Assembly: GCA_021813325.1 (NCBI GenBank)
Contig: JAKALA010000029.1
Span: forward strand, 1-45,535
DNA length: 45,535 nt
Reading direction: 5' to 3'
Origin: a bacterium
GTDB taxonomy: Bacteria > Verrucomicrobiota > Verrucomicrobiia > Limisphaerales > UBA11358
In this document: positions 23,314-43,299 of the stretch, one piece after another
Numbering within the stretch: position 1 is the first letter of the stretch
How the letters are laid out: every line of letters begins with the position of its first letter
Program-made: the position numbers and the translations under genes
The notes under the pieces: generated by a model
Database searches by the model: none
The model's input: the letters and a program-made list of their open reading frames with translations, nothing else
Told to the model about the DNA's origin: nothing

Positions 23314-23349
23314 ATGCGCCAGTTTGATGATTCCACTGTTGCCTTGATT

Positions 23350-23805
23350 ATGAACAAGTTTGTTATTTCGCCGGATGCTCTAAATCGTTTCCGCAACGCT
23401 GCATCGGAAGTTGCGCGCGGCGTTGCGTCGCCTGTTTCGCGCTGGTTGCCGCTCAAGGACGACATCTCGGCACTCCGCCAACGCGGCCTTTCCTACCGGG
23501 CCATTAGTGACCTCCTGTCACAAAACGGCATCAAGGCATCGCCATCGGGGCTGATGCGTTTTTGTCGGCGAATCCTAAAGGAGAAACGCTCACACAAGTC
23601 ATCGGCGAGGCGGCAGACGCCGCGTCGTGCCAATGCTTCCGCTTCGCCGAAAAACGCGCCGGTAGCACCAGTCAAAGCCACTCTGCCGCTCGCGTCGGCC
23701 ATGAATACAAAGCCCGCGCCCGCGCGGGCGGAAACTTCCGCCTTCACATCGCGCGGGCCTCGCATCGCCAAAGTTGAGCAACTGCCACCTGGAGAAACAA
23801 TATGA
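23350..23805 (+). CDS. Putative HTH DNA-binding protein (StbA-like position)
   Basis: This 151-residue protein is read from Met at 23350; Met at 23314 is also possible. It has a helix-turn-helix-like stretch 'DISALRQRGLSYRAISDLLS' and 'GIKASPSGLMRFCRR' (about residues 37-75), followed by a long basic, Pro/Ala-rich tail. It overlaps the ParA-like gene by 4 nt. It sits behind a GTTGC repeat array in which its own N-terminal codons lie partly in phase. In R388 the StbA protein binds direct repeats in the same place, so this could be the array-binding protein. That parallel is inference. Confidence 0.55.
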   Translation: MNKFVISPDALNRFRNAASEVARGVASPVSRWLPLKDDISALRQRGLSYRAISDLLSQNGIKASPSGLMRFCRRILKEKRSHKSSARRQTPRRANASASPKNAPVAPVKATLPLASAMNTKPAPARAETSAFTSRGPRIAKVEQLPPGETI

Positions 23806-24503
23806 CCAAACGCCTTGATTTAATCTTTAACGGCAAGGGCGGTGTCGGCAAAAGTTTCTTTGCCGTCAACTTCGTCCAATACCTCAAAGACAAAAACATC
23901 CCGTTTGCCGCCTGCGACTGCGACAACGAAAATTCCACGTTGAAACGCTTTCATGGCGACGACGTGCAGTTTTTGGATCTGTCCCATCCGCGCGGACTGG
24001 ACGCCATGATTCGGGCGCTGGACAAAACCGATCTCGTCGTCGTGGACTGCCGCGCCGCGTCCACCGAAGTGTTCTTCAATTATTTCGACGAGATTGATTT
24101 GCCGTTGACACTCAAAAACCTGTCCACCGCGATGACGTTCATCATGCCCATCAACCAGGAGGCTGACAGCATTGATCAGCTTAACCGCATCACCGACAAA
24201 CTCCAAAACGTGTGTTCCTACGTCGTGCTGCGGAACACTGTTCACAGCGATAGTTTCCCTCTTTTTGAAAACACGGTCATCCGCAAGCGTTTGCTCAAGG
24301 AGCTTGGCGCAAAGGAAATCACCATGTCCAAATTGCAACCCTGGCTCGTGGAGGAATTGAGCCACAGCAATCTTACGATCACGCCCGCCGTGGCCGACGG
24401 CCATTTGCATTTGCTGGACCGCCAGCGGCTGCAAACGTGGCAGCGTAAATTTTACGCCCAAATCGAATCCGTCGCCGAATTGTTACTTCCGGCAAAGTCA
24501 TGA
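23802..24503 (+). CDS. ParA/MinD-like ATPase (StbB- or TraL-like)
   Basis: The 233-residue protein begins with 'LIFNGKGGVGKSFFAVNFVQ', a deviant Walker A (GKGGVGKS, residues 11-18, with Lys12 and Lys17). It then has 'DLVVVDCRAASTEVFF', where Walker A' would be. ParA-like proteins partition or position DNA, and the equivalent R388 protein (StbB) is needed for transfer and stability. The D-x-D/DCDN segment 'FAACDCDNEN' is normal for the family. Overlaps of 4 nt link it to the genes on each side. Partition or conjugation support is likely; the sequence alone does not separate the two. Confidence 0.85.
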   Translation: MTKRLDLIFNGKGGVGKSFFAVNFVQYLKDKNIPFAACDCDNENSTLKRFHGDDVQFLDLSHPRGLDAMIRALDKTDLVVVDCRAASTEVFFNYFDEIDLPLTLKNLSTAMTFIMPINQEADSIDQLNRITDKLQNVCSYVVLRNTVHSDSFPLFENTVIRKRLLKELGAKEITMSKLQPWLVEELSHSNLTITPAVADGHLHLLDRQRLQTWQRKFYAQIESVAELLLPAKS

Positions 24504-24835
24504 GCGCGCCCGACCAACCAACGCCGCCCGATTTTGACGAGGACTTTTTGCAGGCCCAAACCAAATGGAAGGAGCAGCACAAAATCAAGGACGACGACCC
24601 GGTTTTATTGTTGCTCGATTTGTTTCGGATTCATCAACGTCATTGGGATGAAATCCGCCACCGCGAAATGCCATCGCTCGATGAATTTAAGACGGACATT
24701 ACGGCCTTGACTGAAGCGGCAGGCGTTTTGAAGGAAAGGGTGGTGAAAGAAATCCGGACGGTGGATTTACCGACCGCCATTTTTGCAGCCTTTAGCGCAG
24801 CCATTGCCGGTTTTCTCATCGGAAAATTCCTATGA
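24500..24835 (+). CDS. Small membrane-tail protein of the transfer operon
   Basis: The 111-residue protein overlaps the ParA-like gene by 4 nt and the coupling protein gene by 4 nt. Most of it is charged and helical ('DEDFLQAQTKWKEQHK', 'LLLLDLFRIHQRHWDEI'). It ends in one membrane segment ('LPTAIFAAFSAAIAGFLIGK', about residues 90-108), which suggests a tail-anchored or single-span protein that could link the ATPase or coupling protein to the membrane. No family is recognised; the tight coupling supports a real transfer-related gene. Confidence 0.65.
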   Translation: MSAPDQPTPPDFDEDFLQAQTKWKEQHKIKDDDPVLLLLDLFRIHQRHWDEIRHREMPSLDEFKTDITALTEAAGVLKERVVKEIRTVDLPTAIFAAFSAAIAGFLIGKFL

Positions 24836-26292
24836 ACCTCGATTTTATCCCGTTCCCGTCGGTTCAGCTTCCGGCATTGTCCAAATCACTGCGCGGTTTC
24901 GCGCTCGGTTATGCGGTTTTGCTGGCAATCATTACCGCCCGGCTTTTACTGTTGAGAAAACGCCATGTTGCCAAGCTCGGCGGTCTCACTTGGAAGCGCA
25001 ATCAGTTTTGTCGTGGCTGGCTCATCACCGGTGACACCGGCTCCGGCAAAACATCTTCCGGCATCAACCAACTGGCTCATCAGGTGTTTCAAAACGAGGA
25101 TAATTGGGGCGGTCTGTGCATTGATGAAAAGGGGGTTTATTGGGAAACGCTTTCGGCGATGGCGCGGCATTACGAGCGCGAGAATGATTTGATCCATTTG
25201 CAGATTCAAGCGGACGGCCAGAGCGAACAACCGTTGCATCGGTTCAACCTTACCGGCGACCGCAGCATCCCCTTCACAACCTACGCCAAGTTTGTCGTGG
25301 ACACGGCCACCAGTCTTGGCCAGGGCGGAGACAAAGGATTTTTCAAAAGCCAGGCGCAAACGCACATCGCTCATGCACTGGAATTGCTCGCCGAATTGCA
25401 ACGGCCGGTGACGCTCTCCGGCGCTATGGATTTGCTTTCGAGCAAACCAAAGCTGGATGAGGAATTGGAATTTCTCACCAAACTGGAATTGCAAACACCG
25501 CGCCGTCGCGTGTTGAACGATCATTTCAAACATCGTTTCCTCGACCAGCCGGCGGAGCAGCTTGGCGGCGTCCGCGAGACCATTGGCAATTATCTGCAAT
25601 ACTTTTTGACGCCCGAAGTGGCGGAAATCTTTTGCGTGGAAGAAAGCACGTTCGATTTTTCAACCATTGACGAGGGCAAAATCATCCTCACCACCATGCC
25701 GCAAAAGTTTCAGACCGAGCGCCGGTATGTGAATACCTTTTTGAAACTGCTTTTTTACCATCATGCGTTGCGCCGATTCGACCAGCCCAAGAACCAACGC
25801 GGCAAAAATAATTTGCTCATCCTGTGGGCGGACGAAGCGCAGCGGTTTATGACCGCCAGTGAGGACGGCACGAGCGATTACAATTGCGTGGACGTGATCC
25901 GCGAGGCAGGCGCAACCGTCGTCGCCGCTGCACAATCCACGACATCGCTCATCCCGCCTTTGGGCAACGACAAGTCCAAAGTGCTTACGTTGAATCTTCG
26001 CAACCGGATGATTTTCCGCTCCGCCGACGAAACGGATGCCGTTCAAGCCGCCGACTTTCTCGGCAAGAAGCAGGTGATGAAGCGTTCTTGGGGTTCAAGT
26101 GCCGGCAAGCGCAACGTGAACTATTCCGAAACCGAGGAACACAAAATTAAATCCTACAAACTCCGCAAGCTCCGCGACCATGAATGTGTGCTGGTGCATT
26201 GCGAAAAAGGTTTTCGCCAGATGACGCTGCCGCCGCTTGAACCCAATGGACAAACTGCCAAATGGTTTCCTTTTTGGCGAAAATTATTCTGA
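24832..26292 (+). CDS. Type IV coupling protein (VirD4/TrwB-like ATPase)
   Basis: The 486-residue protein has an N-terminal membrane helix (about residues 22-42), a Walker A 'GDTGSGKTSSG' (residues 67-77), Walker B 'LLILWADEAQRFM' (about residues 325-337) and 'VVAAAQSTTSLIPPL', typical of the RecA-like fold of TrwB/TraD coupling proteins. These hexameric ATPases bring the relaxase-DNA complex to the secretion channel. No VirB channel genes are in view, so the island probably uses a helper. It is short for the family and only one N-terminal helix is obvious, as in small mobilizable elements. It overlaps the small membrane-tail gene by 4 nt. Confidence 0.9.
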   Translation: MNLDFIPFPSVQLPALSKSLRGFALGYAVLLAIITARLLLLRKRHVAKLGGLTWKRNQFCRGWLITGDTGSGKTSSGINQLAHQVFQNEDNWGGLCIDEKGVYWETLSAMARHYERENDLIHLQIQADGQSEQPLHRFNLTGDRSIPFTTYAKFVVDTATSLGQGGDKGFFKSQAQTHIAHALELLAELQRPVTLSGAMDLLSSKPKLDEELEFLTKLELQTPRRRVLNDHFKHRFLDQPAEQLGGVRETIGNYLQYFLTPEVAEIFCVEESTFDFSTIDEGKIILTTMPQKFQTERRYVNTFLKLLFYHHALRRFDQPKNQRGKNNLLILWADEAQRFMTASEDGTSDYNCVDVIREAGATVVAAAQSTTSLIPPLGNDKSKVLTLNLRNRMIFRSADETDAVQAADFLGKKQVMKRSWGSSAGKRNVNYSETEEHKIKSYKLRKLRDHECVLVHCEKGFRQMTLPPLEPNGQTAKWFPFWRKLF

Positions 26293-28802: not shown

Positions 28803-31800
28803 ATGCCACGGATTTTCGACAACATTGCGCTCGACCTCTTACCGTCATTGCGGGAGACGCTGGAGATTTCCCAGCGGTCGGATTTTTGCGTCGGCTACTT
28901 TAATTTGCGCGGCTGGAAAGCCATTGACGGCCTCATTGAAAAATGGCCGGGCGGCGAGGGGCAGCAATGCCGATTGCTCGTCGGGATGCAGCGGCTCGCC
29001 CAGGATGAATTGCGCTCGGCTTACAGCTTGTTGCCGCAGGAAAATGAAATCAGCCAGCAGGCCGTGATCCGGTTGAAACGCCGGCTCGCCGAGGAATTTC
29101 GAGCCCAACTTACCTTCGGCGCACCCAACGACGAGGACGAAGCCGGCCTGCGCCGCCTCTCGGCCCAGCTCAAATCGGGCAAGGTGGTGGTGAAATTATT
29201 TCTCCGCCATACGCTCCACGCCAAGCTGTATCTCTGCTTCCGCCCCGACCCAAACAACCCCATCACCGGTTTTGTCGGCTCCAGCAATCTCACGCTATCC
29301 GGCCTGTCGTATCAGGGCGAACTCAACGTGGACGTGCTCGACCACGACGCCACGCAAAAGCTATCGCGCTGGTTTGAAGACCGCTGGAAAGACCGCTGGT
29401 GCATTGACATCACCAAAGAATTGATCCAAGTGATTGACGAAAGCTGGGCGCGGCCGGAATGTCCGCCGCCGTATCATATCTACGTCAAAATGGCTTACCA
29501 CTTGGCGGAGGAAGCGCGCGCCGGCCTGTCCGAGTTCACCATCCCGGCGGACATGCGCGGCACCTTGCTGGAATTTCAGTCCGCCGCCGTTCGCATCGCC
29601 GCCCGCCATCTGGAAAAACGCGGCGGCGTGATTCTCGGCGATGTCGTCGGTCTCGGCAAAACCCTGATGGCGACCGCGCTGGCCCGCGTGTTCCAAGACC
29701 CGCCGCGCTCGCTGGAAACCCTGATTCTTTGCCCCAAGAATCTCGTCGGCATGTGGAAAGATTACGCCCACCGCTACCGCTTGATCGCCGAGGTGGTTTC
29801 CATCACGCAGGCGCAAAACGAACTGCCCGATCTCCGCCGCTACCGCGTCGTCATCATTGACGAAAGCCATAACTTGCGGAACCGCGAGGGCCGCCGCTGG
29901 GCCGCTGTTCGCGATTATTTGGCGCGCAACGCCAGCAAGTGCATCCTGCTATCGGCCACGCCCTACAACAAAGCCTATCTCGATCTCGCCAACCAGCTCC
30001 GGCTGTTCCTGAATCCCGATGATGTTGTCGGCATTCGGCCCGAGGAATACTTGCGCCGCGACTGTGACGGTCGGCCCGACGAATTTACCCGCCGCCATCA
30101 GTGCGCCATCAATTGCCTCAACGCCTTTGAGAAAAGCAATCATCCCGACGACTGGCGCGAACTCATGCGCCTGTTCATGGTCCGGCGCACGCGCAGCTTC
30201 GTCGAGCGCAACTACGCCTTCACGGAATGTCCGAAATGCGCCACCGTGCTGCTGCCCACGCAGGAGAAATGCCCGAAGTGCGACCAGCCCAAGGCCAAGG
30301 AAGACCGTCGGTTTTTGATTCTTGAAGGCGGCAGCCGTTTCCATTTTCCCAAGCGCCAGCCCAAGACACTCACGTTTCGCATTCGCGATAACGACCCGGA
30401 CGATCAATACGCCAAACTTTATTCTGACAAGGTCGTGGACACTGTTCGGGTTTTGCATCTGCCGCGCTACGGTCTCGCCAATTATCTCAAGCCCACGCTC
30501 GACGTGCCGCCGTCACAGGACGAGGCCGATGTGATGGACAATCTGTCCCGCGCCGGCAAACGGCTCATCGGTTTCTGCCGGACGAACTTGTTCAAGCGGC
30601 TGGAAAGCAGCGGCCATTCGTTCCTGCTCTCGGTGCGGCGGCACATTCTGCGCAATTTTATTTTCCTCCACGCGCTGAAAAACAATTTGCCGCTGCCCAT
30701 CGGCACCCAGGATCAGGCGTTGTTTGATACCCGCGCCGAGGATCACGACAGCGAAAGTGCGTTGTTCGGCTCGGATGAAAAAGCCCCCGCACAGCCCACC
30801 GAAATCACCGCCAAATCCCTCGCCGATTTCGCCGCCGCCGGAGCCGATGGCTACCAGACGCTCAAGACCGAGCATCACCGGAATTTCGATTGGTTGCGCC
30901 CAGATGTTTTTGTCGAAGACCTCTCCACGCATTTGCGGCAGGATGCGGAACGGCTCTTTTCCATCTTGGAACTCGCCGGGCGCTGGCAGCCGGGACAGGA
31001 CAAAAAGCTGGAGGAACTTTTCAAACTGTTGGCCAAAAAACATCCCGATCAGAAAGTCCTCATCTTTTCCCAATTTGCGGACACGGTGTCCTATCTGGCC
31101 GAGCAGTTGAAATCGCGCGGCCTGAAAACCATGTCCGGCGTCACCGGCGATACCGAGAACCCGGCCACCTACGCCCGCCGGTTCAGTCCTGTCAGCAACA
31201 AGGCGCAGGACAAAGGCGCGCCCAACTACGTCGCGCCCGCCGATGAATTGCGCGTGCTCGTCGCCACCGATGTCTTGAGCGAAGGTCAAAACTTGCAGGA
31301 TGCCGCCATCGTGGTGAATTTCGATTTGCCGTGGGCCATCATCCGCCTCATCCAGCGGGCGGGCCGTGTGGATCGTATCGGCCAGAAAGCCGAGCAGATT
31401 CTTTGCTACTCGTTCGTGCCGGCGGATGGCGTCGAGCGCCTCATCCGGTTGCGCTCGCGGGTCCGCCAGCGGTTGAGCGAAAATGCCGAGGTCGTCGGCA
31501 CCGATGAAACCTTTTTTGAGGACGAAAAACACGACACCGTCATCCGCGACCTGTTCACGGAAAAATCCGGCATCCTGGACGACCCGGCGGATGATGAAGT
31601 GGATCTTGCGTCGCTGGCCTACCAGATTTGGAAGAACGCCTGTGACACCAATCCGGCACTGCGAAAAATTATCCCCGATCTGCCCGGCGTCGTGTTTTCC
31701 ACCAAGGCACTATCGGCAATTACCGCCAAGCCCGCCGGAGCCGCCGGCCCGCAGCCCACTTCCGGCGCGATGGTTTATGTCCGCACCGCCGATGGCAACG

Positions 31801-32285
31801 ACGCGCTCGCCTGGGTGGACGAGGACGGCAAAACCGTCACGGAATCACAGCACGAAATTTTGCGCGCCGCCGCGTGCGAGCCGGCCACCCCCGCGCTCCC
31901 GCGCCTGGCCAATCACCATCCGCTCGTGCAAAAAGCCGTCGCTGGCATCCAGACCGAGCATATCACCACGGGCGGCCAGCTTGGTAAACCGTCCAGTGCG
32001 CGGCGGCGCGTGTATGAGCGGCTGAAAGATTACGCCGCCAACGTCAAGGACAGCCTGTTCGACATCAAGCCGCTCCATGTCGCGATTGATGAAATTTACG
32101 AAGCACCGTTGACCGAGGCCGCGCGCGACCTGCTCAACCGTGAAATGCGGACCGGCGTCAGCGATGAAAAACTCGTCGCGCTCGTGCTGTCGCTCCAGGA
32201 AGAAGACCGGTTGTGCGTGCCCAAAGACGACGTCGAGGCCCGCGAACCCAAAATCATTTGCTCCCTCGGTATCCGTAAAGATTAA
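28803..32285 (+). CDS. PLD-nuclease/SNF2-helicase fusion (defence system)
   Basis: The 1160-residue protein starts with a phospholipase D-type domain: 'HAKLYLCF' (H139-x-K141) with 'GSSNLT' (residues 159-164), the HKD-like nuclease pattern. A SNF2/SF2 helicase follows: Walker A 'GDVVGLGKT' (about 280-288), DESH box (about 351), a zinc-ribbon insertion with CPKC pairs at about 476-496, and motif VI 'QRAGRVDRIGQ' (about 851). The methyltransferase gene starts 3 bp after its stop. Similar PLD/SF2 pairings occur in DISARM and in Mokosh-like systems. Here both are one protein and the rest of the DISARM genes are absent. Restriction-like action is inferred. Confidence 0.85.
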   Translation: MPRIFDNIALDLLPSLRETLEISQRSDFCVGYFNLRGWKAIDGLIEKWPGGEGQQCRLLVGMQRLAQDELRSAYSLLPQENEISQQAVIRLKRRLAEEFRAQLTFGAPNDEDEAGLRRLSAQLKSGKVVVKLFLRHTLHAKLYLCFRPDPNNPITGFVGSSNLTLSGLSYQGELNVDVLDHDATQKLSRWFEDRWKDRWCIDITKELIQVIDESWARPECPPPYHIYVKMAYHLAEEARAGLSEFTIPADMRGTLLEFQSAAVRIAARHLEKRGGVILGDVVGLGKTLMATALARVFQDPPRSLETLILCPKNLVGMWKDYAHRYRLIAEVVSITQAQNELPDLRRYRVVIIDESHNLRNREGRRWAAVRDYLARNASKCILLSATPYNKAYLDLANQLRLFLNPDDVVGIRPEEYLRRDCDGRPDEFTRRHQCAINCLNAFEKSNHPDDWRELMRLFMVRRTRSFVERNYAFTECPKCATVLLPTQEKCPKCDQPKAKEDRRFLILEGGSRFHFPKRQPKTLTFRIRDNDPDDQYAKLYSDKVVDTVRVLHLPRYGLANYLKPTLDVPPSQDEADVMDNLSRAGKRLIGFCRTNLFKRLESSGHSFLLSVRRHILRNFIFLHALKNNLPLPIGTQDQALFDTRAEDHDSESALFGSDEKAPAQPTEITAKSLADFAAAGADGYQTLKTEHHRNFDWLRPDVFVEDLSTHLRQDAERLFSILELAGRWQPGQDKKLEELFKLLAKKHPDQKVLIFSQFADTVSYLAEQLKSRGLKTMSGVTGDTENPATYARRFSPVSNKAQDKGAPNYVAPADELRVLVATDVLSEGQNLQDAAIVVNFDLPWAIIRLIQRAGRVDRIGQKAEQILCYSFVPADGVERLIRLRSRVRQRLSENAEVVGTDETFFEDEKHDTVIRDLFTEKSGILDDPADDEVDLASLAYQIWKNACDTNPALRKIIPDLPGVVFSTKALSAITAKPAGAAGPQPTSGAMVYVRTADGNDALAWVDEDGKTVTESQHEILRAAACEPATPALPRLANHHPLVQKAVAGIQTEHITTGGQLGKPSSARRRVYERLKDYAANVKDSLFDIKPLHVAIDEIYEAPLTEAARDLLNREMRTGVSDEKLVALVLSLQEEDRLCVPKDDVEAREPKIICSLGIRKD

Positions 32286-32288
32286 CCT

Positions 32289-35200
32289 ATGCCTCTCGAC
32301 TTCCAACGCGCCCGGCCGCTGCTGCGAAGCGGCAATCTCACGAAGTTGTTCGTCGAGGAACTTGGTTGGGAACCCGCCCGCCAAAAGCTCACGCTTCGCG
32401 TCAGCGAAACGGACTATGCCTTCACCGCCATCGCCGAGAAGCGCGGGTTTACCGCGTGGTCATGCGCGTGCGCCGATGGCAAGTTGCCCGACCACACCAC
32501 GCGATTGAAACTAGATCGCGCCCTGACGCAGACCAGTTTCGAGCATCTCATCGTTTTCCCGACCTATGACGGAGCCACGCAATCATGGATGTGGGTGCGG
32601 CGCGAACAGGGCAAGCCGCTCGCCGCCCGCACACATGAGTTCAATCGCTCCCAGCCCGGTGATTCGCTGCTCCAGAAACTCCAGCACCTTTACATTTCCC
32701 TTGAAGACGAAGAACGGGGCGATGTTCACACCCTCACCCTTTCCGCCGGCGCCCGCGCCGCCTTTGACATTGATAAGGTCACCAAGGCGTTTTACCGCGA
32801 TTTCGACACGCACCGGAAGGCGTTTCTAAAGTTCATCGAAGGCATTGGCGAGGTCGCCGACCGCGAATGGTATGCGTCCGTCATGCTCAACCGGCTGATG
32901 TTCGTTTATTTCATCCAGCGCAAGGGATTCCTCGACGGCGACACCAATTACCTGCGCAACCGGCTCGACCGCTGCAAACAGGAGCAGGGCAAAAATAAAT
33001 TCTACACCTTCTACCGCTACTTCCTGTTGCGACTGTTCCATGAAGGCTTCGGCAAACGCCGCAAGGATCGTGCGCCCGACCTGGAAAAACTGCTCGGCAG
33101 CATCCCGTATCTGAATGGCGGTTTGTTCGATGTTCACGAATTGGAACGCCCCGAACGCTATGGCAAGGAAATCCAGATTGACGACAAGGCATTTGAGCGC
33201 GTCTTTAATTACTTCGATCAATACCAGTGGCATCTGGACGAACGGCCGCTGCGGGATGACAACGAGATCAATCCCGATGTCCTCGGCTACATCTTCGAGA
33301 AATACATCAACCAGAAGCAAATGGGGGCGTATTACACGAAGGAGGACATCACCGAATACATCAGCAAGAACACCGTCATTCCATTCCTGTTCGATGCCGC
33401 CAAGGCCAAGTGCAAGGTCGCCTTTGAAGTAAGTGGCACCGGCGACTCGCCGGTGTGGGATTTGCTCCGCGAAAATCCTGACCGCTATATCTATTCCACC
33501 GTGCAGCACGGCGTTGATAATAAGTTACCACCGGAAATCGCCGCCGGTATCAAAGACGTAGCCAAGCGCGGCGGCTGGAATAAAGCAGCGGCTGCGGATT
33601 GTGCTTTGCCCACCGAAACGTGGCGCGAAGTCATCGGCCGTCGCCAGCGTTACGAGGAAGTCAGAAAGAAACTCGCCGCCGGCGAAGTGAGGCAGGTCAA
33701 CGACTTCATCACCCTGAATTTGGATCTCCGCCAGTTCGCGCAAGATGTCATTCAGAACTGCGAAGGGCCGGATTTGCTCATGGCCTTCTGGCAGGCCATC
33801 ACCAGCATCACGGTGCTTGACCCCACGGGCGGTTCGGGTGCGTTCATTTTTGCGGCGCTCAATATCCTTGAGCCGTTGTATGAAGCCTGTCTGGATCGGA
33901 TGGAAGCATTCCTGGCGGAATGGGGTGCGAACGGCCAGAAATTTTATCCCAACTACCACAAGAAATTCACCGAAGTTCTGGCCCGCGTGGATGCCCACCC
34001 CAACCGGCGCTACTTCGTCTTAAAATCCGTCATCATCAATAACCTCTATGCCGTGGACATCATGGAAGAGGCGGTGGAAATCTGCAAACTTCGGCTGTTC
34101 CTGAAACTCGCCGCCCAGGTCGAGCCGGATGCCAGCCGAGATAATCTCGGCATTGAGCCGCTGCCGGACATTGATTTTAACATCCGCGCCGGCAACTCGC
34201 TTGTCGGCTACGCCACCAAGGCGGAAGTGCAGCAGTGCATGAAGGAACTCGGCGGCGGCCAGATGAAACTGATGGGCGAAGACGAGTTGGGCAGTTTTGC
34301 CCGGTTCAACACGCGCTGCGCTGATGTTGAGCAGGCGTTCAACAAATTCCGCCAGCTCCAGACCGAGGGCGATGGCTCTGTGCCCTACGCCGACAAACAG
34401 GAACTCCAGAAACGGCTCAAGGCGCTGGAAGATGAATTAAACCGTCACCTTGCAACTGAATCCGGCGTGAAGGTGAGCGACAAAGTCGCCTATGCCATGT
34501 GGTTGAAGTCTCACCAGCCGTTTCATTGGTTCGTCCAGTTTTACGGCATCATCGCGAGCGGCGGCTTCGATGTAATCATAGGCAACCCACCTTACGCTGA
34601 AATCCCAAAAGACTTAGGACGATTCCTGCTTCGCAAGACATTCAAGAGTGCGCTTGACCAATGGAGTCGCGACGAAGACCTCTACACACTCGTCGTTGAG
34701 CGGAGTTTGCAACTCATGAAAGCTCATACCGGCAAGTATGGGATGATTCTGCCGCTATCAGTAGCATTCTCAACCAAGAGGCCGTTCGTTGTTCTTCGGA
34801 GTGTCTTGGCAACTGAAAAAGGTTTATGGCTTTGGTCACATTTTGACCGTATTCCAAGTGCGCTTTTTGGAAACGACGTTCGCACACGTTGCACTGTGGC
34901 TTTGCTTTCTCGAACAGAGCAAATTCAGAAGTTTGAAGCTGCAACGACTGCCCTATTACGCTGGAACACCGAATATCGCGATTGTCTCTTCAAGACTTTA
35001 CATTACGCGCGGCTTGATCTTGACATCTCGGCAGGTATACCAAAAGTTGCGAGTCAGATTCAGGCAGATGTGCTAAAAGGGCTACTCCAAGCCAAGTCTC
35101 CCCTGGCATTGGATTTGTCGCGGTCAGTTCCATTCAATGACTTGGCGAGAGCCGCTCCTAATTTTCCTCAGCCGTGTGTCTATGTTGGCGGCACAGCCTA

Positions 35201-35690
35201 TAACTGGTTTCCAGCCTGGCGCGATATACCGGAAACGACAAACATGGACGGTGAGCCATCGCTTCCAGCGCGGACGGCTGGATTTCGTTTTTCCAATGAA
35301 GATCAGGCCAATATCGTTTTTGCACTTCTTTGTAGTTCGATGGGCTATTGGTGGTGGGCAGTTGCATCGGATGCGTTTAACCTTAAAAAGTGGCTGATGG
35401 AACGCTTCCCAGTTTCGGTTTCGATGATACCAGAGGAGGCGCGCAAGCCATTGGCAAAACTTGGGGCAAATCTACGACGGGAGCTAAAAAACAATTACGT
35501 TTACAAAGACAACAAAGGTCGGATAGGTAATTTTTTCTTGCCCGCGTGCGATGCTGAAATTGTCGCAATCGACAATTTCCTAGGCACGGCAGTGCCAAAG
35601 CTTTCAGTTGAGTTTTTTCAAGACGTCAGGAATTTCAATTCCAGTTTCTCCCGCGCCGATTTGGGAGAAGAAGAACGGGACGACGAGTGA
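32289..35690 (+). CDS. Eco57I/PglX-class adenine DNA methyltransferase
   Basis: The 1133-residue protein has motif I 'LDPTGGSGAFIF' (about residues 510-521) and the catalytic 'NPPY' (N766-Y769), typical of N6-adenine methyltransferases that carry their own target recognition domain. The N-terminus ('MGAYYTKEDITEYISKN' at about 341) is as in Eco57I/PglX-like enzymes. Base composition changes at about 34,570, just after NPPY. Two 60-nt counts: 60% GC at 33061-33120, 50% at 34741-34800. The recognition half looks newly acquired. The expected C-terminal tail is absent here but present as a separate frame at 35687. Confidence 0.88.
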   Translation: MPLDFQRARPLLRSGNLTKLFVEELGWEPARQKLTLRVSETDYAFTAIAEKRGFTAWSCACADGKLPDHTTRLKLDRALTQTSFEHLIVFPTYDGATQSWMWVRREQGKPLAARTHEFNRSQPGDSLLQKLQHLYISLEDEERGDVHTLTLSAGARAAFDIDKVTKAFYRDFDTHRKAFLKFIEGIGEVADREWYASVMLNRLMFVYFIQRKGFLDGDTNYLRNRLDRCKQEQGKNKFYTFYRYFLLRLFHEGFGKRRKDRAPDLEKLLGSIPYLNGGLFDVHELERPERYGKEIQIDDKAFERVFNYFDQYQWHLDERPLRDDNEINPDVLGYIFEKYINQKQMGAYYTKEDITEYISKNTVIPFLFDAAKAKCKVAFEVSGTGDSPVWDLLRENPDRYIYSTVQHGVDNKLPPEIAAGIKDVAKRGGWNKAAAADCALPTETWREVIGRRQRYEEVRKKLAAGEVRQVNDFITLNLDLRQFAQDVIQNCEGPDLLMAFWQAITSITVLDPTGGSGAFIFAALNILEPLYEACLDRMEAFLAEWGANGQKFYPNYHKKFTEVLARVDAHPNRRYFVLKSVIINNLYAVDIMEEAVEICKLRLFLKLAAQVEPDASRDNLGIEPLPDIDFNIRAGNSLVGYATKAEVQQCMKELGGGQMKLMGEDELGSFARFNTRCADVEQAFNKFRQLQTEGDGSVPYADKQELQKRLKALEDELNRHLATESGVKVSDKVAYAMWLKSHQPFHWFVQFYGIIASGGFDVIIGNPPYAEIPKDLGRFLLRKTFKSALDQWSRDEDLYTLVVERSLQLMKAHTGKYGMILPLSVAFSTKRPFVVLRSVLATEKGLWLWSHFDRIPSALFGNDVRTRCTVALLSRTEQIQKFEAATTALLRWNTEYRDCLFKTLHYARLDLDISAGIPKVASQIQADVLKGLLQAKSPLALDLSRSVPFNDLARAAPNFPQPCVYVGGTAYNWFPAWRDIPETTNMDGEPSLPARTAGFRFSNEDQANIVFALLCSSMGYWWWAVASDAFNLKKWLMERFPVSVSMIPEEARKPLAKLGANLRRELKNNYVYKDNKGRIGNFFLPACDAEIVAIDNFLGTAVPKLSVEFFQDVRNFNSSFSRADLGEEERDDE

Positions 35691-35821
35691 ACGCGTGCTC
35701 AGCAAACGACCGTCAAAGTAAGTTGACAGGACACTACGGATTCACGCCGGAAGAACTGGATTCCATCATGAATTACGACATCAAATACCGCCTCGGCTGC
35801 GACACGGAGACCGAGGAATAA
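35687..35821 (+). CDS. 44-codon remnant/split C-terminus of the methyltransferase
   Basis: A GTG frame overlaps the methyltransferase stop as GTGA and encodes 44 residues ending in 'HYGFTPEELDSIMNYDIKYR'. I recognise this as the usual C-terminal tail of Eco57I-class methyltransferases. It is in the -1 frame relative to the long gene, and its codons are GC-rich like the front half of that gene. Either the tail is supplied separately, by frameshift or coupled restart, or it is a leftover after the recognition domain was swapped. Confidence 0.6.
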   Translation: MNACSANDRQSKLTGHYGFTPEELDSIMNYDIKYRLGCDTETEE

Positions 35822-35887
35822 TAGGCGGCTCGAAATGATGCCAAGCCAGATGAAATGAATTTTTAGGTCAATTATACCATATTATTT

Positions 35888-38428
35888 ATGAGCGATTCAG
35901 TTCAGGCGTCAATAGATGTAGCCTATAAATCTTTCACTGATTATATCGGCAAGGTTGCAACCTACTTGAGCGAAGACATCAGTGAAAGTGACACGCGCGC
36001 TAAATTTATTGATGTTTTTCTCCGGGATGTGTTGGGCTGGCAGGAAACAAATATCCGCCGCGAGCTTACTTATTGGTCTGAGGGGGAAAAAGCTGCAATA
36101 GACTATATCGTTGGCCACGGCGCAAACTTCCTGGTTGTTGAGGCCAAAAGGCAAATGATCGAGTTTGAATTGCCATCTGATAGGCAACAACTTCTTTACA
36201 AGCTGGACGGCGTAGTTAAGTCGCATCCGAAACTTTGGGCTACGATTCAGCAGGCTAGGACATATTGCGACGATAACGGTATTCCGTTCGCTTTGGTAAC
36301 TAATGGTCGCCAATTTGCGCTATTCAAGGCAATCACGTTAAACAAGTCGTGGAAATCTGGATCTGTTGCCGTTTTTAATCTTGAAACACTGCGCGATGCT
36401 GTTTTCTCAAAAATATTCAAAGCGTTGAGCGCTACTAATTGCAGCTCTACGGCGCTCGACGTGCTGCTGGGGCACTGCCAGCCAACCCTACAAGCTTTTC
36501 GCATAGCTGACACTGTGCAAACCCAACTTGGCCGCATGTGTAACAAGCTTACGGATGTTGTCGAACAAACATTTGCGGAGGTTCTGCGAGACCAATCAGA
36601 GCCGGGTCAAGAGTTCCTAGAGCACTGCTATACGATGGATCAGACAACGGAATTTTATGCCAAATCGCTTCAAGGTCTTCTCCATGATCCAACTCCGCAC
36701 TTTGTAACGGGTGCCGCCAGCGCCAAGCCTGGTCACCGCAAAGATCCATTCGCGCGAGCAATGAGCGCGAATCTTGAGAGAAGTGGGACAAGGCCGCCAA
36801 TTTTATTGATCGGCGGCAAAGGTGTCGGGAAAACCACATTCATCAATTGGTTTTTGAAGGTCAATGAATTTAGGGATAGTGTAAAAGGCGATGTTGTCCT
36901 CTGGATTGATTTTAAGGGTGCCGACTACAACCGGCATGAGGTAGCTCAAAACATAAATCGGGCGCTTTGTCACCAATTGGAAAACAGTAGCTCGCTCAAA
37001 ATCGAAAACTTCAACGCACTTAAACAAGTATTCCACAATAAAATCGCCGCAGAAAAAAAGAGGCTTCTAGCACCCTTCCTGAATGACGATGCAATTTTGG
37101 AGCAGAAAATCTCCGAACTGATTGGGGAATGGCAAAAAGACTCTCATGCCTATTTTGGTGAATTGATCCGGTATGCAACACAACATTGCAATAAGCGCGT
37201 AATTGTAATCCTTGATAACGCTGACCAGAAATCATCACAATTTCAAGGGGCAGTGCATGATGCAGCCCAACAGTTATGTGCGGATTTTCCAATAACTCTT
37301 GTGTTGTCTTTGCGCGAGAGCACTTATTTCAGGTTAAGTAAATCACCGAGGGCAAATGCTTTTTCCCACCAGCAGATATTTCATATTCGGGCTCCTGCGT
37401 TGGCAGCGGTATTGAGAAACCGCCTAAGTTACCTTTCCACACGACTCGGCGTAAAAAACGTGAGCATCACGTCGGCGGCGGGGTTTGAGTTGAAAATTCA
37501 AAACGTCGCTGACTTCATTGATTTGCTAAAAAGGTCGCTACTTGACAGCAAAGATGCACCAAAAATCCTTGAACTTGTCTCGGCTGTGTCCAATGGAAGC
37601 ATTCGCGAATCGCTAAATCTTATTTTTGATTTCTTGGTCAGCGGCCACACAAAAATGGAGGCCTATTTTTGGGAATACGCAAAAAACAAATCAAGTTGCA
37701 TACCATTCCATGAATTTGTCGGCAGCGTTCTATTGAACGAAATGGCCTATTTTTCAGAAAGAAACTCACATTCATTCCTGAATATTTATCGTCGTTCAGC
37801 AACAGTCGGTGACAGCCATTTTACCCGTCTCAGGTTTTTGGCTGTTGTCGAAAAACTTTCGGCAGGCAATTCATTGCAGCCCGAAGATTTTGTGCGAATT
37901 GATGAAATCAAAAAGATTTTCATCGAAGGAGGGACCCCTGCCGAGGTGCTCGATGCTCACCTTCAGGCGCTTATTCGGTTCGGCCTGCTACAAGCGAACA
38001 CCCAAACGAGCCTCAGCGACGAAGATACAATTGCCGAGGAATACGCTGAAATCGCTTCTCTGCATATCACCGCAGCAGGTAAATACTATAAGGAGTTCCT
38101 TTCTAGCGATTACCAATACCTCCTGCGAATTATTCCCGACTCGTCAATATTTTCAGAAAAAGCTTACAAGGAAATTGACGCTGTCTATACGCCATATAAA
38201 ACACGCGATCTAATCGTGCCAATTGATAGGGCGACCGTCGCAGTTGAACACTTTCTCAAATACCTCACAACCGAAGAGCAAAATGAATTGGCCCAGACAC
38301 CAGTCGGAAGCAGCGATATTCTTAAATCGATAATTTACATGCCCACAGTTGGCGTGAGGGCCAAAGCAGACATTGAACATATACGGCGAGCTGTAGCGGC
38401 AGCGCGTCAAGGGGGCAACGGCCATTAG
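35888..38428 (+). CDS. PD-(D/E)xK nuclease/P-loop ATPase fusion
   Basis: The 846-residue protein has an HsdR_N-like nuclease domain at its N-terminus, 'AAIDYIVGHGANFLVVEAKRQ' (D75...E89-x-K91; residues about 73-93). A P-loop domain follows with Walker A 'GGKGVGKTT' (about residue 313) and Walker B 'RVIVILDNADQKS'. The rest (about 450-846) has no family I can name. It is notably AT-richer (24 of 60 GC at 37321-37380) than the genes around it. An AT-rich stretch with 'TATACC' precedes it, suggesting its own promoter. An STAND-like (Avs-type) defence ATPase or a restriction effector are options. Confidence 0.65.
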   Translation: MSDSVQASIDVAYKSFTDYIGKVATYLSEDISESDTRAKFIDVFLRDVLGWQETNIRRELTYWSEGEKAAIDYIVGHGANFLVVEAKRQMIEFELPSDRQQLLYKLDGVVKSHPKLWATIQQARTYCDDNGIPFALVTNGRQFALFKAITLNKSWKSGSVAVFNLETLRDAVFSKIFKALSATNCSSTALDVLLGHCQPTLQAFRIADTVQTQLGRMCNKLTDVVEQTFAEVLRDQSEPGQEFLEHCYTMDQTTEFYAKSLQGLLHDPTPHFVTGAASAKPGHRKDPFARAMSANLERSGTRPPILLIGGKGVGKTTFINWFLKVNEFRDSVKGDVVLWIDFKGADYNRHEVAQNINRALCHQLENSSSLKIENFNALKQVFHNKIAAEKKRLLAPFLNDDAILEQKISELIGEWQKDSHAYFGELIRYATQHCNKRVIVILDNADQKSSQFQGAVHDAAQQLCADFPITLVLSLRESTYFRLSKSPRANAFSHQQIFHIRAPALAAVLRNRLSYLSTRLGVKNVSITSAAGFELKIQNVADFIDLLKRSLLDSKDAPKILELVSAVSNGSIRESLNLIFDFLVSGHTKMEAYFWEYAKNKSSCIPFHEFVGSVLLNEMAYFSERNSHSFLNIYRRSATVGDSHFTRLRFLAVVEKLSAGNSLQPEDFVRIDEIKKIFIEGGTPAEVLDAHLQALIRFGLLQANTQTSLSDEDTIAEEYAEIASLHITAAGKYYKEFLSSDYQYLLRIIPDSSIFSEKAYKEIDAVYTPYKTRDLIVPIDRATVAVEHFLKYLTTEEQNELAQTPVGSSDILKSIIYMPTVGVRAKADIEHIRRAVAAARQGGNGH

Positions 38429-38467
38429 CCGCACAATCATTTAAGCAACCATTCATCCGGACGAATT

Positions 38468-40885
38468 ATGAGTGAACCTGCAAATCCATCTCGGACCATC
38501 GCCGAGTTTATTCTTGGCGAGCTGGACCATTTCAAAAAAACTTTCCGACCGCACGGCGGCAACCTGACGTTTCACGGCCAGACCCAACTCACCCATGAGC
38601 CGTTCGTCGGTTACGCCAGGGTGACAGACAAGAAGAATGTCGAAACCAAGCTCCTGATTTGCCGCCACTATACGCCGCTCAATTTTCATGCCCGCAATGG
38701 AAATGTTGATTTTGCCAGCTATCTTTCGCCGTTGGGGCGCGTCGTGGCCAAACGTCCCGGCCAGGACCACAAGTTTCAGATAAAGACCCGCGCCGGCAAT
38801 ATATTGGAAGACCACCATTTTCAGCTAATTGAGAAGGATGAATTTACCCTGCATCTGGATGGCGGGGCTTGGGATGCCGTCAACAATCAGATTTCATGGA
38901 TTGATGGCCGGCTGCTGGCACGGTCGCTGCGGCAACTTCTGGCGGGCAAGCCGGAGGAAAAACAAATCCGCCAGTTGCGCTATTCGGTTCAGTTGCCCGA
39001 TCAGGCAATTTTGGATCTGGCCCAGGACGAGATTTTTCGTCTGCCGCTGCGGGCGCGGATTCGTATTTCCGGCGCGCCGGGCACAGGCAAGACCACGGTG
39101 CTGCTAAAACGGTTGTCGCAGAAAACCAAGCGTGAGTTTCTGACGGACGAGGAATCCAGCAGCATCCGCGATGAAGATTGGCAGGATGGCAGAAACTGGA
39201 TGCTTTTCACGCCGAGCGATCTGCTGAAAGTGTATCTCAAAGAGGCGATGGCCAAGGAGCTGTTACCGGCGAGCGATGATCATGTGAAAGTTTATCGCAC
39301 GTTCCGGTTGGAGCTGCTGCGGGACATCGGATTTATCCGCGTCGGCCAGCACGGCTTTTTCAAGACCGCGACCGAGGGGCTGCAGTTGATGAAGCGCGGT
39401 AGCGGCGGCGAGCAGGTCGCGCTTGCCAAGGCGTTTGGAAAATATCTCAACCCGCGTTACACCCAGGCATTTCGTGACGCCTTGCAAAAGTTCAATGACG
39501 AAACCCGCGTGCCATTGGGCAAACTGACGGACGCGGCGCAAAAGGTTCTCAACATTGGCTTGGATATTTTGTCCAAACCTCTCGAAGACGTCATCGCCTT
39601 GCAGCAGGCGCAGCAACGCGCGGCTGGGTATCGTCGGCTGAATGAAAACCTGAACAAAATCATCAGTTCCGTCCGCGCTGTGGCCGCGCTTGAAAGCACC
39701 GGCATGGAGCTTACCTTGGCCCGGATTTATCGCCAGACGCGGTTGCTGCCGGGCATTTTGGAATCCTTGACCACATCCAATATGGAGGTCGCCTTGTTCC
39801 CGGACATCCCACCGGTTGTGGAAAATCTGCGCCGCCATGTGAAAGATTTGAGCGAGGCGGTCACACTCACGCGACTGTTTCAAATTATCCCGAGAGCCTA
39901 CCAGGAGTTCCGTGAAACGCCGGATGACCAGAGACGATTCTTCGTTGATGAATGTGAAAAATCCATCAAGGAGCGGGCCTTGTCCGAGCCAGAACAGGAT
40001 GTCCTTCTGTTCCAAGCGCTGCAATTCGTGCGCGAATTGGCAGACGACATCCCGGCGAACCAGACCGGCGTTCCCGGCGATGTGCGGGCCATCCTTGCCC
40101 GGATGCGGATGTTCGTATGCGTGGACGAGGCGGCGGATTTTTCCCCGCTGGAAATCGCCTGCATTGAGCGTTTCGCCAAACTGGGGTCGGGTGGGGTCAC
40201 CATCTGCGGCGATCTCATGCAACGGGTCACGGAATCGGGCTTGAAGGAGTGGACCGACCTTGCCGATATTTCCGAGCCATACGAAGGCCGCGAGTTGCGC
40301 ATCAGCTACCGCCAGACCGAACGGTTATTTTCCATCGCCAAAGACCTTTATCGTCATTCGCGCGGGATCGAACCTGATTTTAAATCGGCGTTTCCAAAAC
40401 GCGCGGAGGATCCACCGCCGTTACTGCATAAAGGCACGGGCGAGCAAACAGCCGAACAATGGCTCACTAATCGGATTTGCGAAATCCACGCCTTGTGCGG
40501 CCAGCACCTACCCACGACGGCAATTCTGGTGGCCCATCAGGATGACGTTGAACCACTCAGGCAAAAACTGAAACCCATTTTGTTGGAAAACGGACTTGAG
40601 CTTGAGGCGTCGCATGGCGGACAGGCTCTCGGCGATTCGGCCCGCGTCCGCATTTTCCCGGTCGAGTTCATCAAAGGCTTGGAATTTGAAGCGGTCTTTT
40701 ACGTCGGCCTCGACCGCATGGCGGAAATCCACAAGGATCTCATAGACAAATATGTCTATGTCGGCCTGAGTCGCGCCCGTAGTTTCCTCGGTGTCACCAT
40801 CGAACGACAGTTTCCGCAGCGCCTCAAGAGCGTTGCCGATCACTTCGTCCAAGATGGAAGTTGGGCGCTAAATCCAGATGCTTGA
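38468..40885 (+). CDS. UvrD/Rep-like superfamily 1 helicase
   Basis: The 805-residue protein has a unique N-terminal region of about 200 residues. UvrD-type motifs follow: Walker A 'GAPGTGKT' (residues 202-209), Walker B 'VCVDEAADFSP' (about 551-560), motif III 'CGDLMQRV', motif IV 'ISYRQTERL', and motifs V/VI 'KGLEFEAVFYVGLDR' and 'YVGLSRARS'. These enzymes unwind DNA 3' to 5'. It begins 39 bp after the nuclease-ATPase stop and ends 6 bp before the DprA-like gene, so the last two are likely one unit. A defence role is inferred from context. Confidence 0.82.
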   Translation: MSEPANPSRTIAEFILGELDHFKKTFRPHGGNLTFHGQTQLTHEPFVGYARVTDKKNVETKLLICRHYTPLNFHARNGNVDFASYLSPLGRVVAKRPGQDHKFQIKTRAGNILEDHHFQLIEKDEFTLHLDGGAWDAVNNQISWIDGRLLARSLRQLLAGKPEEKQIRQLRYSVQLPDQAILDLAQDEIFRLPLRARIRISGAPGTGKTTVLLKRLSQKTKREFLTDEESSSIRDEDWQDGRNWMLFTPSDLLKVYLKEAMAKELLPASDDHVKVYRTFRLELLRDIGFIRVGQHGFFKTATEGLQLMKRGSGGEQVALAKAFGKYLNPRYTQAFRDALQKFNDETRVPLGKLTDAAQKVLNIGLDILSKPLEDVIALQQAQQRAAGYRRLNENLNKIISSVRAVAALESTGMELTLARIYRQTRLLPGILESLTTSNMEVALFPDIPPVVENLRRHVKDLSEAVTLTRLFQIIPRAYQEFRETPDDQRRFFVDECEKSIKERALSEPEQDVLLFQALQFVRELADDIPANQTGVPGDVRAILARMRMFVCVDEAADFSPLEIACIERFAKLGSGGVTICGDLMQRVTESGLKEWTDLADISEPYEGRELRISYRQTERLFSIAKDLYRHSRGIEPDFKSAFPKRAEDPPPLLHKGTGEQTAEQWLTNRICEIHALCGQHLPTTAILVAHQDDVEPLRQKLKPILLENGLELEASHGGQALGDSARVRIFPVEFIKGLEFEAVFYVGLDRMAEIHKDLIDKYVYVGLSRARSFLGVTIERQFPQRLKSVADHFVQDGSWALNPDA

Positions 40886-40891: not shown

Positions 40892-41446
40892 ATGAATACC
40901 GGGGACGAAACAATCACGCGTGAAGATGCCCGCTATCCAGCGCGTTTGACCCAGCGCTTGGGCGCGGATGCCCCATCAAAATTATCCGCGCTCGGCAACC
41001 TCGACGTGCTCGCCCTGCCCAAAACCGCGCTGTTCTGTTCCGCTCGATGCCCCGGCAGCGTCATCCTCCCCACCTACGACCAAGCCGCCAAGTGGCGTGA
41101 TACCGAGCGCTGCGTCATTGGCGGTTTTCATTCGCCGGTTGAGAAGGAGTGTTTGCACATACTGCTTCGCGGCGATTCCCCGGTCATTCTCTGTCCCGCT
41201 CGTGCGATGCTAGAACGGCTGCCAGCCCAATGGGCCATCGCCGTCGCCAGCGGCCGGATGTTGATCCTTTCCGCGTTCGCCGCCACGGCCACGCGCATCA
41301 CCGCCGAGCTTGCCGCCTGCCGCAACGAGTTCGTCGCCGCCCTAGCCGATGACATTTTCATCGCCCACGCCACGCCCGGTGGTCATGTGGAAACCATGAT
41401 GAGCCGCTTGCGTGAGTGGAGAATTCCACTTCGGGAGGCAAAATAA
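40892..41446 (+). CDS. DprA-like Rossmann protein, short form
   Basis: The 184-residue protein has the DprA/SMF-type core: 'LPKTALFCSARCPGSVILP', 'ERCVIGGFHSPVEKECLH', 'LLRGDSPVILCPARAML' and 'RMLILSAFAATATRITAE'. Classical DprA (about 300-370 residues) loads RecA on incoming single strands. This version is much shorter and lacks the N-terminal SAM and C-terminal winged-helix domains. Short DprA-like proteins recur next to helicases and nucleases in defence islands. It starts 6 bp after the UvrD-like helicase, so they likely act together on single-stranded DNA. Confidence 0.75.
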   Translation: MNTGDETITREDARYPARLTQRLGADAPSKLSALGNLDVLALPKTALFCSARCPGSVILPTYDQAAKWRDTERCVIGGFHSPVEKECLHILLRGDSPVILCPARAMLERLPAQWAIAVASGRMLILSAFAATATRITAELAACRNEFVAALADDIFIAHATPGGHVETMMSRLREWRIPLREAK

Positions 41447-41467: not shown

Positions 41468-42727
41468 ATGCCCAATGACCAACCAAGCGGTTCGGAGCTC
41501 CCAAGTCCCATTGGGCAAATGCCAACCCGTGACTACGGCGCAGAAACATTCCGAAATTATCGCTATCAGTCAGCCTACGCCGTCGTGTTGCTCGTAGCCG
41601 CCGCCGCCAAGAAAAATGGCTATATGGCCGTTTGGTGTGAGCAGGAGGACGATATTCTGGCTCAGGTCAGCGAAAACTCATTTGATTCCTACCAGGTAAA
41701 AACCCGCAAGCCGGAATTAGGTGAGTGGCGTCTGACGGATGACGCATTTATCAGTGCGGTAAAGGGGTTCATTCGTCTGGACGCTCAATATCCTGGCCGT
41801 TTCCGGCACTTCAATTTTGTCAGTAACGCCGAATGTCTGGAAAGTGACGCCTTAGCGCAAAAGCATCTGTGTCCAAAGCGCCTGGCAGCAGCCGCAGTGA
41901 ATGGCTGTTTATCTGCCGCTGAATTGCCAGAAATCGAAGGCAAAGGGTTCAAGGCATTGCTTGATAAAAGCGAAGCCACGTCGGAAGCCTTGTTCAAAGT
42001 TCTCCAGCGGTTGGGATTTGTTAAGACGCCGGATCGCGAATCTTTTATCGCCGAACTCACCCAAAACCATTTGCGCGAACTCGAATGGTGCCGGCTGCAG
42101 CAACCGAGATTGGAAACCGTGGTGTGGTCGTTGATCGAAATGGTGGACCGGGCATCCTCGCTGTCATCCCAGGATTCCTCCCGGCACCTCGCCCGCCATG
42201 CCGGCGATGGACTGCCCGACCCGCAATTGACCGCCAAATGCATCACGGTCGAGGATTTTATTTTGCGCAGTCGTGAGCTAACAAATCCCGCCTTTCGCTA
42301 TCTTCCGTCGCTGACCACCAGCCCGCTGGGGCAAACGAGCAAGGATTTGAAGCGCTTTAACCGGAAATTGAACCGGGGCGGACTGAATGATTATGCCCAC
42401 TCGTTGCGCAATCAGACGCTTTCAGCGGAAGCTGCGTTCCTTGATCTGGCTACTCGCGGCCCCGAAGGACAGGCAGAATTGACCCAGATTGAAAATGTCG
42501 TCAAAGCCGAATGTGATGCCGCCCACCTGCGCGCCGCGCAGGGGGCGAAGCCTTTTGGCCAGCGAATGTTGATTGATGTTCAGGACAGACTGCATCGCGT
42601 CGCCAGAGAAGAATCGGACAAAGTCGGCAGACAACCTTATGAAGCTTTGATCGGCATGGCAGGTATTTTAACCGAAAGTTGTCCGGTCTGGTGGAGTGAA
42701 AAATTTAATTTGGAGGATCAGCCATGA
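41468..42727 (+). CDS. ABC-three-component nuclease subunit (DUF4297-type)
   Basis: The 419-residue protein starts with a DUF4297/Cap4-like nuclease region. 'YRYQSAYAVVLLVAAAAKK' is followed by 'WCEQEDDILAQVSENSFDSY' and 'QVKTRKPELGEWRLTDD', where E, DD and QxK give a PD-(D/E)xK-type dsDNA nuclease core. The remaining helical part would bind the other components. It overlaps the middle component by 4 nt (ATGA), and the ABC ATPase follows with the same overlap. This is the effector of an ABC-three-component defence set. Confidence 0.78.
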   Translation: MPNDQPSGSELPSPIGQMPTRDYGAETFRNYRYQSAYAVVLLVAAAAKKNGYMAVWCEQEDDILAQVSENSFDSYQVKTRKPELGEWRLTDDAFISAVKGFIRLDAQYPGRFRHFNFVSNAECLESDALAQKHLCPKRLAAAAVNGCLSAAELPEIEGKGFKALLDKSEATSEALFKVLQRLGFVKTPDRESFIAELTQNHLRELEWCRLQQPRLETVVWSLIEMVDRASSLSSQDSSRHLARHAGDGLPDPQLTAKCITVEDFILRSRELTNPAFRYLPSLTTSPLGQTSKDLKRFNRKLNRGGLNDYAHSLRNQTLSAEAAFLDLATRGPEGQAELTQIENVVKAECDAAHLRAAQGAKPFGQRMLIDVQDRLHRVAREESDKVGRQPYEALIGMAGILTESCPVWWSEKFNLEDQP

Positions 42728-43299
42728 GCCTGAAAATTCTGCAACTGGCAGCAGCGGTAGAAAACTCCGACGAGTTCAATGAAGCCCGCCTGCTCTTGTT
42801 GCTAAAAGCTGCCGCCGGCAAAGATGAAATCGCCAAGCCGCTGGAGGGTATAATGAAGCTGGCGAAGATGGATTTCCTGCTTCGGTATCCCAACATGCTG
42901 GTGCGCGCGTTGAATGTCATCGGCGAGTCCAAGAAATCCGCCCTCGCCGCCGCCGCCGCGATTCCCGAACAAGACCGGGACACCATTGAGGCGCGGATGA
43001 TTCGATTCCGATTCGGCCCGTGGGATCCTCGATATCGGCGTTGGCTAAGTATCCTCGTTGCCAAGCAACTGGCCGTTGTTTACCGCGAAGGGCGGACGGT
43101 GAAAATCCAGCTTTCAAAAAACGGCATGGCTTTGTCCGAGCAATTGGCAGAAGCCGAAGCATTCAAACCTCTCGCCGAGCGCGCGAAAGTCGTGAATTCA
43201 GCGGTGGGCAATATGCCATCATCGAAAATCACGGCTTTCGTTTATAAAATAGCACCTGAAATCATCAACATGAAGTGGGGCAACGCCATCGAATTATGA
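42724..43299 (+). CDS. ABC-three-component middle component
   Basis: The 191-residue protein links the nuclease and ATPase genes by 4-nt overlaps on both sides. 'ARMIRFRFGPWDPRYRRWLS' and 'KQLAVVYREGRTVKIQLSKN' form a winged-helix-like segment that is typical of the small middle subunit in ABC-3C systems. Its role is to bridge the nuclease effector and the SMC-like ATPase. Family assignment relies on this layout and the wHTH-like shape. Confidence 0.75.
   Translation: MSLKILQLAAAVENSDEFNEARLLLLLKAAAGKDEIAKPLEGIMKLAKMDFLLRYPNMLVRALNVIGESKKSALAAAAAIPEQDRDTIEARMIRFRFGPWDPRYRRWLSILVAKQLAVVYREGRTVKIQLSKNGMALSEQLAEAEAFKPLAERAKVVNSAVGNMPSSKITAFVYKIAPEIINMKWGNAIEL

Follow-up and report, generated by a model that had tools for sequence, protein, structure and literature searches.

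Exchange and movement of recognition domains are established, as three papers describe (PMC3077401, PMC3983042, PMC3874165), and it is known that a defence enzyme can be re-aimed by exchanging its recognition part. In Helicobacter pylori, for instance, target recognition domains are reported to be exchanged or moved in Type I S genes and Type III M genes (PMC3077401, PMC3983042). In PglX, a methyltransferase of the bacteriophage exclusion (BREX) systems, the methyltransferase region covers residues 227-661 and the recognition domain residues 662-849, according to PMC11341690. The locus described here lies in a stretch of 45,535 nucleotides, called the window, which is contig JAKALA010000029.1 of assembly GCA_021813325.1 (Verrucomicrobiota, Limisphaerales, UBA11358). 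Its methyltransferase gene is very probably a recombination chimera, composed of a resident 5′ part and a 3′ part that probably stems from another methyltransferase class, with the old C-terminal tail displaced.

The open reading frame (ORF) at 32289-35690 encodes this methyltransferase of 1133 residues and is a gamma-class adenine methyltransferase gene. The layout of that class was found, with motif I (VLDPTGGSGAF, 33813-33845) preceding the NPPY motif IV (34584-34595, forward strand), the recognition part lying C-terminally, and Pfam Eco57I matching at E 9.8e-22. The best profile was PADLOC REase_MTase_IIG PDLC03628 (E 8.8e-298), which covers residues 11-1070 of the protein, while the main ORF matches positions 11-1037 of the 1100 in the profile. 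Among searches of solved structures, the only pertinent match was the TaqI methylase (E 0.08, residues 759-843), and the others were weak matches to unrelated proteins.

Several described systems resemble this enzyme or its locus. PDLC03628, extending over nearly the whole window protein, links it to Type IIG restriction-modification, as treated in PMC3874165; Pfam recognises no nuclease domain in its N-terminus, and the nuclease of the locus resides in the helicase gene. Residues 1-140 were modelled as alpha/beta with no active site assigned, in a poor model with a mean predicted local distance difference test score (pLDDT) of 52. The resemblance to BREX PglX/BrxX consists in the gamma class, the NPPY motif and the C-terminal recognition part (PMC11341690). 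However, the NCBIfam PglX models stayed below their cut-offs (49.1 bits against 900 and 42.2 bits against 500), and relative to the PglX domain border the exchange in the window starts earlier, at motif IV. Type 2 of the DUF499-centred, BREX-related Hma systems likewise places a fusion of an HKD/PLD nuclease and an SNF2 helicase beside an N6-methyltransferase, as described in PMC12839542, whereas Pfam found no DUF499 among the 17 window proteins scanned, and a DprA-like gene recurs instead. With respect to DISARM, the defence island system associated with restriction-modification, DrmB was not among the PADLOC matches listed for nine scanned proteins. The DISARM-profile matches listed were only DrmD-, DrmMI- and one weak DrmA-, on helicase, methyltransferase or ATPase genes. 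With H. pylori, as those papers portray it, the locus shares recognition segments swapped as modules between conserved flanks; it differs in an edge that falls within the catalytic domain, at motif IV, in an apparent donor of another class and in an old tail that has become a separate ORF. A known motif considered for the pSYSX homolog is assigned in the literature to another gene, Slr6095, and nothing is claimed from it.

The resident part of the gene extends over 32289-34595 on the forward strand and comprises the N-terminal region, motif I and the sequence through NPPY, an assignment supported by PDLC03628. The incoming segment, at 34596-35690 on the same strand, carries the end of the catalytic domain, the recognition half and a foreign C-terminus with its own stop codon. 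These boundaries were determined by blastn of the window against collected loci (designated by L numbers) at E 1e-4, with own copies and duplicates (L001, L043, L062, L010, L017) excluded. The DNA match stops at 34591-34611 in all 15 distinct family genes that reach motif IV (L006, L007, L008, L009, L012, L014, L016, L019, L045, L046, L050, L055, L060, L068 and L070), eleven of them ending at 34591-34595, in the NPPY codons, and four at 34596-34611. The match to a more distant enzyme, L036, stops at 34595 as well. Loci cut by contig ends are uninformative on the left boundary, as are L044 and L059, for which similarity is already lost further upstream in the gene. In the same comparison nothing matches inside 34612-35721; similarity returns at 35722-35748 and stops at 35790-35825, in the tail, with 77-88% identity to the tails of other loci. 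The protein comparison gives the same picture: from residue 509 to NPPY, identity is 90% to L014 and 89% to L006, it is 21% to L014 after NPPY, and between NPPY and residue 1067 the segment is 21-28% identical to 15 other rows. An earlier note on this DNA had proposed such a homolog comparison as its check, and identity indeed proved high in the tail and as far as NPPY, falling close to background in the stretch that separates the two.

In other family members (L006, L007, L008, L012, L014, L016), the tail is fused in frame with the enzyme. The window enzyme instead finishes with another C-terminus that has a stop codon of its own, and the tail lacks its first ten residues. In a profile test of C-terminal ends, the new C-terminus matches other classes and not the tailed one. 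The remainder of the tail lies in an ORF of 44 residues at 35687-35821 (forward strand, -1 frame), which begins with GTG in a four-base GTGA overlap with the main stop and matches PDLC03628 positions 1070-1099 of 1100. The GTG lies twelve codons before the homology to fused tails, which sets in at about 35723-35732, and there is no ATG nearby. The conserved family tail reads ...DEIDxxLAxHYGFTxEELDFIxNYDIKYRxGR, and in the window tail some conserved residues are replaced (F to S, R to C). A simple one-base frameshift between gene and tail was considered and is ruled out by about 128 extra nucleotides and the missing beginning of the tail. The separate frame with the family tail, recognised in the earlier note, is real, but the tail is left over and not rejoined.

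Phylogenetic trees built on either side of NPPY disagree on the relatives of the gene. The enzymes are referred to here as tailed (T), tail-less (N) and S-type, names coined in this analysis. The tree for the part between motif I and NPPY, built from 18 sequences, places the window as the sister of tailed L014 (92/90). In the tree of the part after NPPY (23 sequences), it stands with the S-type enzymes L047, L056, L057 and L074, with values of 100/99 for bootstrap and the Shimodaira–Hasegawa-like approximate likelihood ratio test (SH-aLRT). With all rows, the approximately unbiased (AU) test rejected placing the segment with the T class and with the N class, each at p 0.008. When the three longest branches were omitted, the S grouping persisted at 100/99 and the T class was again rejected (p 0.003). 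Because of this tree conflict and the AU rejection of the tailed class, the segment is, as judged by sequence comparison, not native to that class. The mosaic, its two boundaries, the displaced tail and the conflicting trees are demonstrated; boundaries, trees and AU results together favour the exchange that had been proposed earlier. What had been described as an inserted recognition segment is larger than that, as it starts at motif IV and includes the rest of the catalytic domain.

The source of the segment is probably an S-type methyltransferase, which is the best supported, though unproven, class. Class profiles applied to the segment gave 199 bits for S, 127 for N (142 with L058) and 138 for T. 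The S-type genes themselves have an N-terminal half unlike that of the window; a second methyltransferase gene follows the S-type gene in L057 and a PLD gene follows it in L056, and the frames following L047 resemble, by eye, a second methyltransferase and a PLD protein. The donor search covered 387 genomes of the phylum, 320 genomes of the order and plasmids. Phages yielded no relatives of the segment at E 1e-5; a profile search revealed one viral contig with a relative at 28% (L074), and a whole-protein scan of viral contigs returned no relative.

Base composition, on which the exchange had originally been proposed, turned out to be a poor guide. The figures of the earlier note were right, with a guanine-cytosine (GC) content of 0.60 at 33061-33120 and 0.50 at 34741-34800, and composition does fall after NPPY, from GC 0.563 and third-position GC (GC3) 0.722 to 0.486 and 0.475. 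The idea that GC edges bracket the insert nevertheless fails, because GC stays low after the tail ORF (0.348 at 35822-35887 and 0.459 in the gene at 35888-38428) and because the drop was seen in 16 of 16 sequences compared, which represent 14 distinct genes; examples are the Synechocystis plasmid homolog L055 (0.374 to 0.298) and L046 (0.597 to 0.444). Composition was for this reason discarded as proof of exchange. The tail frame, which had been called GC-rich, has a GC of 0.511 and is high only at third positions (0.719 over 32 codons), where it resembles the part before NPPY and not the segment.

Exchange of the recognition half is recurrent in this family. Between L014 and L050, identity is 70% over the stretch from residue 509 up to NPPY and 84% beyond it; between L016 and L050, it is 89% before NPPY and 43% after, with DNA identity of 82-92% again at the tail. 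The AU test rejects L014 with L050 before NPPY (8.8e-6) and L016 with L050 after it (5.7e-5), and for the part before NPPY the three N-type enzymes tested do not come together as a clade (9.8e-74). A second displaced tail occurs in L019/L110; its ORF is intact, comes after an N-type C-terminus with its stop, and has an ATG overlapping the end of the enzyme. Behind the N-type enzymes L009 and L044 there is no tail, and a PLD-type gene is present instead.

Other rearranged or broken copies were also observed. The gene at L011:3775-5979 (the same gene as L017; 95% identity over residues 1-505) has lost its catalytic part, and its N-terminal half runs in frame into a T-type recognition half and tail. 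At L018:1402-2565 (93% over residues 1-320), the catalytic part is lost and the frame runs into the downstream gene. In a family member from genome G489 (L051, L067), two reading frames, of 945 and 187 residues, divide the recognition half between them.

Several observations weigh against a chimera with an S-type donor. The post-NPPY drop in GC is family-wide, the source genome is a draft of 123 contigs, and the structure predicted from seven sequences (mean pLDDT 52) was of too low a quality for assessing the join or for a fold search. The donor search in phylum and order genomes and in plasmids turned up no close relative of the segment, the best reaching 31% over most of its length and 37% over one piece of 129 residues. 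Moreover, without the three longest branches the AU test fails to reject the N class (p 0.079). A less probable alternative is accordingly a donor within the family itself, of the tail-less N class seen in L019/L110, to which the best single-pair blastp score also points (131 bits for N-type L044 against 125 for S-type L056). The S grouping at 100/99 in both trees, the AU rejection with all rows and the profile scores (S 199 against N 127-142 bits) speak for the S class instead. That no exchange took place, and that the recognition half diverged fast in place while a frameshift or early stop severed the tail, is quite improbable. Recognition halves are poorly conserved across the family (19-43% for most pairs), which fits this explanation, yet it is disfavoured because some pairs (L014/L050, L009/L044) are more alike after NPPY than before, a pattern that divergence in place does not produce. 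The missing initial residues of the tail, the extra nucleotides and a C-terminus like those of other classes and not of T also argue against it. The draft state of the genome could suggest that two genes of a mixed sample were joined in assembly; such an artefact is the least credible of the explanations, since the same type of junction occurs in other genomes (L019/L110; L016 against L050), contamination is low (0.13), and the main ORF is open with both neighbours in order.

The last alternative concerns the tail, which may be not a leftover but a small gene required in trans by the swapped enzyme. Tentatively, it would encode a protein of about 45 residues that is fused to tailed enzymes, or separate where a recognition half lacking the tail has replaced the old one, often with its start overlapping the enzyme stop, and that is retained in some genomes after loss of the enzyme. 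Start codons favour this idea. In the collected loci, at a profile score of at least 50 and with duplicates removed, 16 near-complete tails without in-frame tailed-class sequence upstream were compared with 27 that belong to fused or truncated tailed enzymes. Ten of the 16 (L105, L106, L108, L109, L110, L111, L112, L113, L011:8019-8156 and L137) have an in-frame ATG no more than five codons from where the tail begins, as against 1 of the 27 (Fisher 3.8e-5); about 7% was expected, and none of 500,000 simulations was as high as 10/16. In the window (GTGA), L110, L108, L106 and L111, moreover, the tail start overlaps the foreign end before it, and pN/pS, the ratio of nonsynonymous to synonymous polymorphism, was 0.23 among 8 enzyme-less tails and 0.14 among 11 fused ones. 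On the other hand, the window tail is among the six of 16 without a nearby ATG and is altered at conserved positions, N-type L009 and L044 manage without a tail behind them, and collection by protein score favours intact tails, while decayed ones exist (L117, L119, L121, L122). Six of seven plasmid tails lie under annotated methyltransferase genes (the seventh under ‘hypothetical protein’), and the hypothesis was itself prompted by some of these data. A role in trans is doubtful. Enzyme-less tails, many with a start codon, raise the question of an overlooked small protein in these defence loci.

The preferred interpretation, a chimera with a displaced tail, suggests the following course of events. 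The resident copy would have belonged to the family found behind the PLD-SNF2 helicase gene and would have ended in the conserved tail. In place of the stretch from the NPPY codons to just inside the tail, it would then have received the 3′ part of another class of methyltransferase, together with the C-terminus and stop codon belonging to that part. Of the two crossovers, the left would fall in or beside the NPPY codons and the right within the old tail, leaving the last 32 tail codons as a separate ORF, possibly translated by coupling. The donor DNA most likely came from a related element and recombined within the tail and at the NPPY codons, a sequence shared by the different classes of methyltransferase; this route is itself inferred. 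Since the exchange begins at motif IV, the later catalytic motifs would have arrived with the recognition part. Activity of the chimera is plausible because motif I and NPPY are intact, and the new segment may have changed the DNA specificity of the enzyme, re-targeting with it the helicase-nuclease.

In this locus, both edges can be read at the base level, the incoming half is probably of another class, and the displaced tail testifies directly to the event. The edges indicate a natural joining point for methyltransferase classes, and they provide a rule for spotting swaps: similarity lost at NPPY and a tail out of frame downstream. No report of a displaced tail or NPPY junction was found in one open-access literature library, which is weak evidence of absence because only that library was covered. 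The chimera illustrates how defence enzymes may be re-aimed.

Tails of this family are scattered. Across the order, the tail profile gave 38 matches in 31 of 313 genomes, 9 of them in frames of at least 800 residues and 29 in shorter ones (some being truncated enzymes or contig edges); in the phylum, matches occurred in 14 of 387 genomes, and phages contained no tails. The gene end upstream of the L106 and L111 tails is presumably a methyltransferase C-terminus, with no PADLOC match. Deletion scars were seen in L112, where the start of the helicase is joined to the tail, and in L121, where residues 475-648 (92% identity) are joined to a decayed tail. In L108, the first helicase codons are apparently joined to an N-type end and tail (by eye). 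In the decayed tails of L116 and L122, short inserts of similar sequence, RGFGGQV(K/E)YR, stand at roughly corresponding positions and perhaps represent a dispersed repeat.

The locus is a recurring trio of a PLD-SNF2 helicase, the methyltransferase and a DprA-like gene, with a variable slot before the last. The PLD-nuclease and SNF2-helicase gene (28803-32285, forward strand; Pfam PLDc_2, SNF2-rel_dom and Helicase_C; PADLOC C3a139 HKD+Snf2, E 7.6e-43) lies immediately 5′ of the methyltransferase gene and is its probable operon partner. The pair also occurs in L006, L008, L009, L010, L011, L012, L055, L059 and L060. The DprA-like gene (40892-41446, forward strand; Pfam DNA_processg_A, E 6.8e-8), the recurrent third member, lies downstream of the methyltransferase in L006, L008, L009, L012, L016, L018, L044 and L110. 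In the window, the slot between tail and DprA-like gene (35888-40885, about 5 kb) holds two forward-strand genes identified by Pfam, an HSDR_N-like gene with an AAA ATPase (35888-38428) and a UvrD-like gene (38468-40885). It is almost empty in L006 and L016, where the DprA-like gene follows the methyltransferase tail nearly directly, and it contains a DinD-like gene in L110 and a PLD-type gene in L009 and L044.

The island probably lies in a mobilisable element, as suggested by genes for a TrwC relaxase, a ParA-like protein, a SopB-HTH protein and a TrwB/TraG-like coupling protein on its 5′ side (19850-26292). Directly after the DprA-like gene, at 41468-45245, there is a Lamassu-like set of Cap4/LmuA-like, LmuC-like and LmuB-like genes. 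In the related pairs of the cyanobacterial plasmids L055 and L060, the helicase and the methyltransferase are separated by two genes, one small and one for a VapC-family toxin.

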